A stretch of DNA of 54,432 nucleotides. Origin: Frankiales bacterium (GTDB lineage Bacteria; Actinomycetota; Actinomycetes; JAFAQI01). The stretch spans positions 1-54,432 of the forward strand of contig JAICXJ010000019.1 in assembly GCA_025980465.1 (NCBI GenBank), written 5' to 3'. Below, in pieces: positions 2 through 2,702 of this stretch. The notes under the pieces are model-generated. The model had not been told where the DNA came from and ran no database searches. It saw nothing but the letters and a program-made list of their open reading frames with translations. The translations under genes were made by a program, and so were the position numbers. Positions within the stretch are counted from its first letter, which is position 1, and each line of letters starts with the position of its first letter.

Positions 2-820
2 CTCGGGCTGATGCTCGGAATCATGATCGGGTACTACCAACTGACTCGCAGCACCGGACACGCAACGCTCGTCGACCTGTGGGCGGTCGTGACGTACGTG
101 ACGGTCGGGAGCGCGTCGCATCCATTCCCGCCGGGGATCGCGCAGGTGTGGACGCTGGTGGTCGAATGGGAGTTCTACCTGGTGTGGCCGGCGGTGTTGG
201 TCACGCTGCTGCGCCGCAACGTCTCGCGGCGAGTGATCGGCCTCCTCGTCGCCGTCGCAGCGGTCGCTGTCGCCGGGTTCAGGGCGCTGCTGTTTCATCA
301 CGACGGCGGCAACTGGATCCTCAGCTACCACTTCGCGTGGCTTCGCTTCGACGAGCTGCTGCTCGGCTGCGCGCTCGGTCTGCTCGCCGGCGAGCTGCGA
401 GTCCCCGGCTGGCTGCGAACGATCGGCCTGGCGGGCATCCTGCTCGCGATCTCGCGGGCAACCTATCCGGACCACTGGCTGTATCTCGGCGGCATGATGG
501 CGCTCGCGATCGCCACCGCCGCGGTCATCGCGCCGCGCCGGGTCGGCGGCTGGTGGGCGGACCGCATCCTCACCAGTGCGCCGATGGTCTGGATCGGGCG
601 GCTGTCGTACTCGCTGTATCTGTGGAGCGTGCCGACCGTGGCCGAGGTCGGCCGCCGCGGCGGCTCGATCCCGCTGGTACTTCGGGTAATCGTCGCGATT
701 GCTGCATCGTTCGCGCTCGCGGCGGCGTCGTACTACCTGGTGGAGAAGCGCTTCCGGCTCCCGTCGCGGCGCGCTCTTACGAATCAGGCGACGAGACCGA
801 CCGTGCGTGCTTCGTCGTAG
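2..820 (+). CDS. Acyltransferase family 3 (OafA/YrhL-like) membrane protein, 5' end outside the window
   Basis: This is the C-terminal part of an integral-membrane acyltransferase that transfers acetyl or similar acyl groups to surface sugars. The reading frame is open from base 2, so the start lies to the left and the catalytic N-terminal His region is not visible. What is seen is a run of hydrophobic helices and the family motif WTLVVEWEFYLVWP near residue 50 of the visible part, close to the usual W-S-L-x-x-E-E-x-F-Y-x-x-W-P. The last helix ends in SYYLVEKRFRLP, typical of the family. The 3' end overlaps the convergent HNH nuclease gene by 37 bp. By context it probably acylates the glycan made in this region, but the substrate cannot be read from sequence. 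Confidence 0.85.
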   Translation, partial: LGLMLGIMIGYYQLTRSTGHATLVDLWAVVTYVTVGSASHPFPPGIAQVWTLVVEWEFYLVWPAVLVTLLRRNVSRRVIGLLVAVAAVAVAGFRALLFHHDGGNWILSYHFAWLRFDELLLGCALGLLAGELRVPGWLRTIGLAGILLAISRATYPDHWLYLGGMMALAIATAAVIAPRRVGGWWADRILTSAPMVWIGRLSYSLYLWSVPTVAEVGRRGGSIPLVLRVIVAIAASFALAAASYYLVEKRFRLPSRRALTNQATRPTVRASS

Positions 821-2301
821 TACTTGTTGGCGAATTCACGGAAGCTCGATCCCCAGGCGTCGAGCATGTCGATGGCCCACTCGAACTCTTGGAGTTCTTC
901 GTCGGTGAGTGGTGGAGGTTCGGGGAGCGGGATCCCGTCGTCGTCGATGGCCCAGGGCAGGCCTGGGTCGGTGGCGGGTAGCCGGTCGGCGACGTGCTGG
1001 GGGATCTCTTCATCGTCATCGACGGGCTGGATCAGTCCGGCCGGGTAGCTCGGATGACGTTTGCGGTAGCTGCGGCCGAGCGGGCTGGTCCAGATCTCGG
1101 TCCCGTCGGGCAGCTGGTCGATCCGCCAGAACCGGCGGGTTTTGAGGTTGTGGTGGCGTCGGCACAGCGGGTGCAGGTTGCAGGTGCTGGTCTGCCCGCC
1201 GTCGGCCCAGTCGAGGCGGTGGTCCTCGTCACAGTCGATCGACGGTCGCAGGCAGCCTGGCATCGAGCAGCTCGGATGGACGGCTTTGACGATGTCATGC
1301 TGCCGCCTCGACGGCCGGTAGCGGCGGCGGCCGACGTCGACCACGGTGCCTTCGAGGGGGTCAGTGAGCAGCCGACGCAGCTGGGCGTCGTGGGTGAGTT
1401 CGCGGGCGGTTTCGGCGGTGATCGGCCCGTAACCGGCGAGCTCACCCGGGTTACGGGTCAGGCCGAGGTAGGTGGGCAGGTCCACGGTGACATCAGTGCG
1501 CACCACCGGCCAGTTGGCGATATCGCCGCCGAGGACCGCGTCGCGCAGCGCCTCGATCCGAAGCTGCCCGAGGTTGCGCGGGTCACCGTCGGCCTTCAGC
1601 TGCCTCGCGCGGGCGTCGAGGCGGTCACGGATCTGCTTCATGGTCGCGGCCGGCCCGTAACAGGACATGGTGGCCATGTCGTTTTCCTCACCGAACAGCA
1701 CCACGTCACTGTCGCGGCTCGCCTGCCCGGCGCGGTCCGCGGCACGATCCGGGTCGGCGGCCATGACGGCTTTGCGGGCGGCGCGGGCCAGCTCGGCCGG
1801 CGTCCACTCCCGCTCCACGGCGAGTGGGATCAGCCGCTCCTCGACGTACTTCGCCACCTTGGGGGTGCAGTGCCGGGTCACCTTCGCCAGCGCCTTCACG
1901 TGCGCGTAGGTGATCTCACCGCGCTCCAGCGCGGTCCAGGTCACACCGAGGGTGCTGGCGACCTGCTCGACCAGCGCCAGCTCGGCCATCATCGTCCCGA
2001 AGTTCACGTGCTGATACAGCGCCAGCTCCTGCGCCACCATCGAGGCGTCCTTACCCAACCGGCCCGAGCACTCCGACTGCGCCAGCATCGTCTGTGCCGC
2101 CAGCCACGCGCCGGCCCGCGACCACAGCGCCGCACAGCGGAACGCATCAAGATCGGACAGCGGCGCAGCGCGCAACCCATACAGCCCCGCGATCGTGCCT
2201 GGACTGATCGGCTTGGCCTCCAGCACATCCAGCAGGCGGGAGGCCGGCCGGCACATCGCCGCCCACAACTCCCGCTCCGCCGGATCCCGCAACCCCTGCA
2301 T
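784..2301 (-). CDS. DUF222 / HNH endonuclease domain protein (13E12-repeat type)
   Basis: A protein of about 505 residues with an N-terminal DUF222 region (roughly 20-330) and a C-terminal HNH nuclease fold. The metal and catalytic signature is visible as CSMPGC, then CDEDHRLDW, then NLHPLCRRHHNLK. Proteins of this architecture include the 13E12 repeat family of mycobacteria; their true function is unsettled (nuclease, possibly mobile). I chose ATG at 2301 over a longer frame to 2373 because a -10 hexamer TATGTT ends 6 nt before it, giving a leaderless mRNA. A perfect LexA box also lies just upstream, so the longer version would place the operator inside the gene. It looks like an intact accessory gene beside, not part of, the glycan locus. 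Confidence 0.88.
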   Translation of the reverse strand: MQGLRDPAERELWAAMCRPASRLLDVLEAKPISPGTIAGLYGLRAAPLSDLDAFRCAALWSRAGAWLAAQTMLAQSECSGRLGKDASMVAQELALYQHVNFGTMMAELALVEQVASTLGVTWTALERGEITYAHVKALAKVTRHCTPKVAKYVEERLIPLAVEREWTPAELARAARKAVMAADPDRAADRAGQASRDSDVVLFGEENDMATMSCYGPAATMKQIRDRLDARARQLKADGDPRNLGQLRIEALRDAVLGGDIANWPVVRTDVTVDLPTYLGLTRNPGELAGYGPITAETARELTHDAQLRRLLTDPLEGTVVDVGRRRYRPSRRQHDIVKAVHPSCSMPGCLRPSIDCDEDHRLDWADGGQTSTCNLHPLCRRHHNLKTRRFWRIDQLPDGTEIWTSPLGRSYRKRHPSYPAGLIQPVDDDEEIPQHVADRLPATDPGLPWAIDDDGIPLPEPPPLTDEELQEFEWAIDMLDAWGSSFREFANKYYDEARTVGLVA

Positions 2302-2330
2302 GGTTCGAACATACGTTCGACCACCGACAA
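2302..2330 (-). promoter_or_regulatory. Composite DNA-damage promoter: LexA (SOS) box overlapping a PafBC/RecA-NDp promoter
   Basis: Positions 2305-2320 read TCGAACATACGTTCGA, a perfect TCGAAC-N4-GTTCGA actinobacterial SOS box. On the minus strand, 2330-2308 read TTGTCGGTG, then 8 nt, then TATGTT, which fits the RecA-independent DNA-damage promoter consensus (tTGTCRgtg-N8-TAnnnT) recognised through PafBC. The -10 hexamer lies inside the LexA box, and 6 nt separate it from the ATG at 2301, predicting a leaderless transcript. LexA bound here would cover the -10 while PafBC could still activate it. Both motifs are seen directly; their action is inferred from known families. Confidence 0.88.
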
Positions 2331-2702
2331 GATCAAGGGAATGTCCGCAACCGGCCACAATCTGTGGAAACAAGGGCAGCAGCGGGACTCACATCAGCTC
2401 GCGTGCGGCAACGACGATCCCTGCCGTGTTCGGCAGGTACGCCACCTGCACAGTCGTGGCACCGATCGTTGCGGAACTGTGCCACGCGCAGTAGGTCACT
2501 TTCGGGAAGTTCGACGCCTACACGAGGTAGACCGCGCTCGCGTCCGGCGCGAGTTCGCCTGGAGGACCCTGCTGACCTCACTCACAATCGTGCTCGTTGA
2601 TGGCTGATGGGTCGGCGGTGCGGAGGAATCGAATCTTGCCGCCGCGGTCGATCAGCAGGTTCGTCGAAGTGCGGAGTCGCCGCGTCCGCAGTGGGCGATT
2701 TG
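2331..2702. other. Non-coding stretch between the HNH promoter and the end of cysQ
   Basis: No convincing gene is seen in these 372 bases on either strand. The only structure I can point to is a small hairpin at 2420-2437 (CCTGCCG, TGTT loop, CGGCAGG), without a following T-run on either side. It could be a weak terminator remnant or chance. The sequence is somewhat less GC-rich than the flanking genes. Confidence 0.5.

Follow-up and report, generated by a model that had tools for sequence, protein, structure and literature searches.

In mycobacteria and their relatives, there are two DNA-damage programmes, derepression by LexA and activation by PafBC, and both may act at a single promoter. 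A candidate case is a promoter of the Frankiales bacterium contig JAICXJ010000019.1, located in the window (the whole analysed stretch of 54,432 nt), where motifs of both regulators overlap in front of a DUF222/HNH gene. According to our analysis, this is probably a leaderless, LexA-repressed and PafBC-boosted gene of the 13E12 type, encoding a putative nuclease and gated by DNA damage.

Layout of the Focal Promoter

Direct reading of the minus strand at 2336-2299 yielded TTGATC-TTGTCGGTG-GTCGAACG-TATGTT-CGAACC-ATG. The locus comprises the following features:

784..2301, minus strand: DUF222 (PF02720) protein with a C-terminal HNH motif, 505 aa (DUF222 E 4e-13)
1138..1269, minus strand: HNH region C-x4-C-x6-C-x-x-D-H...N...C-x-x-H-H-x-x-K, residues 345-388
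2299..2301, minus strand: predicted leaderless start ATG, 6 nt past the -10 and 3 nt past the box
2305..2320, either strand: perfect LexA operator TCGAAC-N4-GTTCGA, covering the -10 hexamer and the stretch to about -4 of the predicted start
2308..2313, minus strand: -10 hexamer TATGTT within the LexA box (box positions 8-13), kept in 9/9 class I promoters (defined below)
2322..2330, minus strand: PafBC -26 element TTGTCGGTG, matching TTGTCRGTG at 9/9 positions
2331..2336, minus strand: -35-like TTGATC, 17 nt upstream of TATGTT, where relatives have TTGAC
2355..2367, either strand: inverted repeat CCACA-N3-TGTGG, 2 mismatches from a DnaA box and only a weak candidate

The motif behind the PafBC -26 element is described in PMC8151990 and its -26 position in PMC11804915. 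A preliminary description of this DNA had reported a perfect TCGAAC-N4-GTTCGA operator at 2305-2320, a full PafBC/RecA-NDp match at 2330-2308 with its -10 inside the operator, and an ATG 6 nt after this -10. The operator was recovered with 0 mismatches at exactly these coordinates, and a pattern scan of the whole window found no other perfect copy. Every base of the PafBC match and the 8-nt spacer between TTGTCGGTG and TATGTT were likewise correct, as was the position of the ATG (2301-2299). The -35-like TTGATC, which agrees with TTGACA at 4/6 positions, had been left unmentioned and is added here.

Since the reading frame stays open upstream as far as a TTG at 2373, it does not fix the start codon. 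The ATG at 2301 is a predicted start, placed by means of the relatives and an annotated Mycobacterium adipatum gene, in which the start-to-box distance equals that of the focal gene. The 6-nt distance from the -10 to this ATG, together with the relatives, suggests a leaderless transcript. The CCACA-N3-TGTGG copy gave no DnaA-box match within 1 mismatch.

Rarity of the Site in the Genome

The 3.45 Mb genome has a single copy of the full consensus TTGTCRGTG-N8-TANNNT, located at the focal site (2330-2308, minus strand), and 0 copies of its reversed control. An order-3 Markov simulation of 3.45 Mb served as the genome-wide null model. It produced 0 full PafBC sites versus 1 observed, one perfect LexA site (2 matches counting both strands) versus 8 observed, and no combined LexA/PafBC site. 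From the base composition (68% GC), the probability of finding all nine bases at precisely the PafBC distance was estimated at about 5e-6 per promoter. A chance origin of the focal overlap is unlikely. A genome scan allowing 2 mismatches in the PafBC motif returned 82 matches per strand versus 43-46 for the reversed motif and was discarded as too noisy for regulon definition.

LexA and PafBC Machinery of the Host Genome

The host genome encodes pafA-pafB-pafC, lexA and recA; pafB and pafC are present as WYL/WCX and HTH_PafC domains adjoining the Pup ligase. Three 1-mismatch LexA boxes belong to lexA, while recA has a 1-mismatch LexA box plus a separate PafBC-like site, CTGTCGGTA-N8-TACGGT. The recA gene itself (L052, C63:33886-35937) comprises two matching blocks ~1,075 nt apart within one open frame of 759 aa and is apparently intein-bearing.

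Perfect LexA boxes were found at six of the seven DUF222 genes of this genome, which represents 6/8 of its perfect boxes in total. The remaining two are located at the start of an imuA'-type gene (C58) and before a methyltransferase/dinB operon (C9). The C9 box (C9:30359-30374, L061) is the same 16-mer as the focal one, belongs to a TTGACG-17-TATGTT promoter and precedes the methyltransferase gene and dinB. Two DUF222 copies, L058 at the 193 kb end of C11 and L060 at the end of C60, share their C-terminal peptide and both run off their contigs, which suggests near-identical repeats that broke the assembly.

Promoter Architectures of DUF222 Genes

A search of the upstream regions of other DUF222/HNH genes, as proposed in the preliminary description, showed that the overlap recurs in several registers in many actinobacteria. 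Two classes were distinguished. Class I includes the focal gene and eight relatives (n = 9). Here, the LexA box TCGAAC[GA]TATGTTCGA encloses the -10 TATGTT, and the start codon follows 0-4 nt past the box. A TTGAC-like -35 precedes the -10 by 17 nt, with TTGA at that offset in 8/9 promoters. A PafBC-like element is present in two of the nine, the focal promoter (TTGTCGGTG) and L077 (GTGTCGGGG), and both have a weaker -35 (TTGATC and TGGACA, respectively); the other seven have a TTGAC -35 and no TGTC. As judged from these elements, PafBC is not a conserved input in the focal ortholog group, and the LexA/-10 overlap is conserved.

Class II includes most other DUF222 genes. In this architecture, TGTC precedes the box by 17 nt, the last base of TANNNT is also the first base of the box, and the PafBC element is present in most paralogs. 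The box contains the start codon, TCGAACNN-ATG-TTC-GAN, and the encoded proteins start with MFE or MFD; in a second phase, TCGAAC-ATG-NG-TTCGA, the N-termini are MSS or MRS. Because the first codons (ATG/GTG-TTC-GAN, e.g., in L212, L089 and L159) are part of the LexA operator, the operator restricts the class II N-terminus to MFE/MFD. Promoters whose box coincides with the -10 or directly follows it are commoner than the focal register, in which the box contains the -10.

An additional form of overlap was observed in the DUF222 genes L246-L252 of Tsukamurella tyrosinosolvens, where degenerate LexA-like boxes merge into a -10 of the TAGAAT/TACGAT type just before the start, as in L252 (TCGAACAGGCGTACGAT).

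Spacing between the PafBC Element and the LexA Box

The spacing was assessed in 297 genomes of the class, using perfect LexA boxes that have a TGTC at a distance of 9-27 nt. TANNNT followed TGTC at exactly 12 nt in 59 of the ~140 distinct matches listed, and the runner-up offset had 11 matches. This peak matches the spacing within TTGTCRGTG-N8-TANNNT and that within TGTC[GA]G-N10-TANNNT, the latter reported for M. tuberculosis (PMC8151990), and points to PafBC. The same assignment is supported by 47 fused promoters that were chosen on TGTC and [TC]ANNNT alone and include related sequences, so that they are not independent events: their unselected bases (R 0.93, G 0.68, T 0.40, G 0.72) recover the PafBC consensus as TGTCRGTG. 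The start codon was found 7 nt past the -10 in 41/47 of them.

In promoters taken without selection for TGTC, this word occurred 17 nt before the box in 11/18 class II promoters of the same family and in 9/17 promoters from named genera, including Actinotalea, Actinomycetospora and Pseudonocardia (both counts again include related sequences). An equal frequency of TGTC at neighbouring offsets was tested for and was not seen. At DUF222 genes without a box (Lentzea, Streptomyces, Kibdelosporangium), PafBC-like sites were detected at only 2 of 38 no-box loci, both in one Frankiales MAG.

Recurrence of the Focal Register

The focal register, defined as TGTC-N5-box with TA at the -10 position, was found at 9 sites in 8 of 394 genomes; the reversed control gave 0. 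An ORF start 3 nt past the box was present at four of the nine sites: the focal one, one in a sister genus (G006) and two paralogs in a genome of a different family (G038). One of the G038 copies has the full TTGTCGGTG-N8-TAGGTT, and its DUF222 match (E 1.5e-4) is below the Pfam cut-off. The focal-type matches in G122, G004, G008 and G359 are not located at DUF222 starts. On plasmid pMYC1 of M. adipatum, an annotated DUF222 gene has TTGTCGGTG-N8-TATTGT beneath a 1-mismatch LexA box, with the annotated ATG 3 nt past the box.

The preliminary description had presented the fusion of the two inputs as a feature of this gene. The fusion is real, but it is not isolated: by its layout, the focal promoter belongs to a module that is widespread at DUF222/HNH genes and occurs in more than one register.

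DnaA-box words (TTRTCCACA) were also overrepresented upstream of DUF222 promoters, 40-73 bp from the LexA box at several loci (L055, L057, L070, L073, L079, L084 and others). The exact word occurs upstream of 6/27 DUF222 promoters in the family (permuted-word mean 0.05), 2/16 in named genera and 1/22 in genus g11 (family f5), which is rich in fused promoters, some carriers being paralogs. Upstream of related promoters, the shorter words TGTGGA/TCCACA are likewise overrepresented.

Properties of the Encoded Protein

The focal protein scored 49.7 bits against PF02720 (cut-off 24.4), and its match to the HNH profile PF01844 (E 0.084) was below the cut-off. Residues C345, C350, C357, H361, N375, C380, H383, H384 and K387 are invariant among relatives; these conserved HNH residues and the family membership make the protein a putative nuclease. 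The AlphaFold model had a mean pLDDT of 59, with the HNH part below 50. A Foldseek search with this low-confidence model returned nothing at E ≤ 0.001, the best match being ParB/Spo0J-like, and the NCBIfam and PADLOC profile libraries assigned no meaningful function. Phage records contained no DUF222 relative and hence gave no evidence of phage carriage.

A role of DUF222/HNH-type proteins in mismatch repair has been suggested speculatively (PMC4181829), and the REP13E12 loci of M. tuberculosis are gene-conversion hotspots without a defined function (PMC13061034). Our preferred guess is a recombination-provoking nuclease timed to repair.

Proposed Regulation and Alternative Explanations

Without DNA damage, a LexA dimer bound at 2305-2320 would cover the -10 and block RNA polymerase. 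Upon accumulation of ssDNA, RecA filaments would trigger LexA self-cleavage and free the -10, and the same ssDNA would activate PafBC. PafBC is known to bind ssDNA, to join promoter-bound RNAP-sigma-A and to link the -26 element with region 4 of the sigma factor (PMC11804915). At the focal promoter, it would engage TTGTCGGTG at -26 and bridge to region 4 of sigma-A, compensating for the weak -35 TTGATC, and transcription would start at or beside the A of the ATG.

LexA is expected to act as the dominant lock, because the PafBC-RNAP complex should be kept off a promoter whose -10 lies under bound LexA. PafBC may be a booster rather than an absolute requirement, since the focal promoter keeps a -35; this weak TTGATC could allow PafBC-independent transcription after LexA cleavage. 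A need for LexA cleavage plus a response to PafBC, as first suggested for this promoter, is plausible. The likely purpose would be to restrict a self-harming or recombination-provoking nuclease to active DNA repair.

Several other explanations were weighed. Control by LexA alone, with TTGATC-17-TATGTT as a sigma-A promoter, LexA over its -10 and a functionless TTGTCGGTG match, is unlikely. It would fit the seven class I promoters that lack a PafBC element and follow the plan TTGAC-17-TATGTT, with the -10 in the LexA box, as well as the dinB-operon promoter of the same genome, which shares this plan (TTGACG-17-TATGTT) and the identical box. Against it stands the agreement of all nine bases at precisely the PafBC distance (about 5e-6 per promoter), in the one full match that the genome contains, and TGTCGGTG is also carried by other lineages with the same box register. 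Even less probable are independent, OR-like inputs, where PafBC-driven polymerase displaces or outcompetes LexA and either pathway alone induces the gene. Mycobacterial recA is indeed inducible by either pathway, but from separate promoters (PMC5656591); here, a single -10 lies under the operator, so bound LexA should exclude polymerase, and PafBC without RNA polymerase does not bind its motif (PMC11804915).

Two further explanations are highly improbable. If the gene began at TTG 2373, from which the frame is indeed open, or elsewhere, the box would be intragenic and the promoter reading wrong. This was rejected on the start positions of relatives: the nine class I starts lie 0-4 nt past the box and class II starts inside it, the annotated M. 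adipatum start agrees with the ATG, and the focal N-terminus aligns with relatives from ATG 2301 onward. In favour of a chance co-occurrence of the two motifs is that the window had been read without a null model; it was rejected on three results: no combined site in the simulated 3.45 Mb, 0 reversed patterns in 394 genomes, and the sharp spacing peak.

Dual LexA/PafBC input on one leaderless promoter, as proposed in the preliminary description, is the reading we retain; judged from sequence, it is well supported by the fixed geometry, the recurrence and the presence of pafBC, lexA and recA. A broader model can be offered only tentatively, and we regard it as doubtful: DUF222/HNH genes across actinobacteria would share a fused PafBC site, -10, LexA operator and often first three codons as a true two-key gate requiring both LexA cleavage and active PafBC, and in some lineages the DnaA box 40-73 bp upstream would add a third, replication-linked input.

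Comparison with Known Systems and Significance

Published work has already placed 13E12/HNH genes under LexA, and several genes under both LexA and PafBC. In M. tuberculosis, 10 HNH/13E12 genes were listed in the LexA regulon (PMC4181829), five RecA-dependent HNH genes were reported (PMC8151990), and several genes carry both an SOS box and RecA-NDp (PMC8223512). The focal gene has the same TCGAAC-N4-GTTCGA box as the 13E12-family HNH genes of the mycobacterial regulon, but adds a fixed-spacing PafBC element and a predicted leaderless start fused to the operator. With respect to PafBC/RecA-NDp promoters (TTGTCRGTG-N8-TANNNT; TGTC[GA]G-N10-TANNNT), the focal site fits all specified bases and the spacing; unlike in typical ones, its -10 sits in a LexA operator and a weak -35 is retained. 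Sites for both inputs are also present at recA in mycobacteria and in the host genome, yet as two separate sites and promoters (LexA promoter P2, PafBC promoter P1), whereas a single -10 is common to both at the focal gene. The host dinB-operon promoter (C9:30359) resembles the focal one in its identical 16-mer, the -10 in the box and the -35 17 nt away, but has no PafBC element and is not leaderless. No description of the fused, start-codon-containing layout was found in the literature searched, in which coverage of key primary papers was incomplete; its novelty is provisional, and an earlier description of the overlap is possible.

A fused promoter of fixed geometry that recurs throughout a gene family in tractable genera would open AND, booster and OR logic to a direct test, with point mutations confined to about 40 bp. 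The findings point to DUF222/HNH genes as being among the most tightly damage-gated in these genomes, and their start codons must double as LexA operator.
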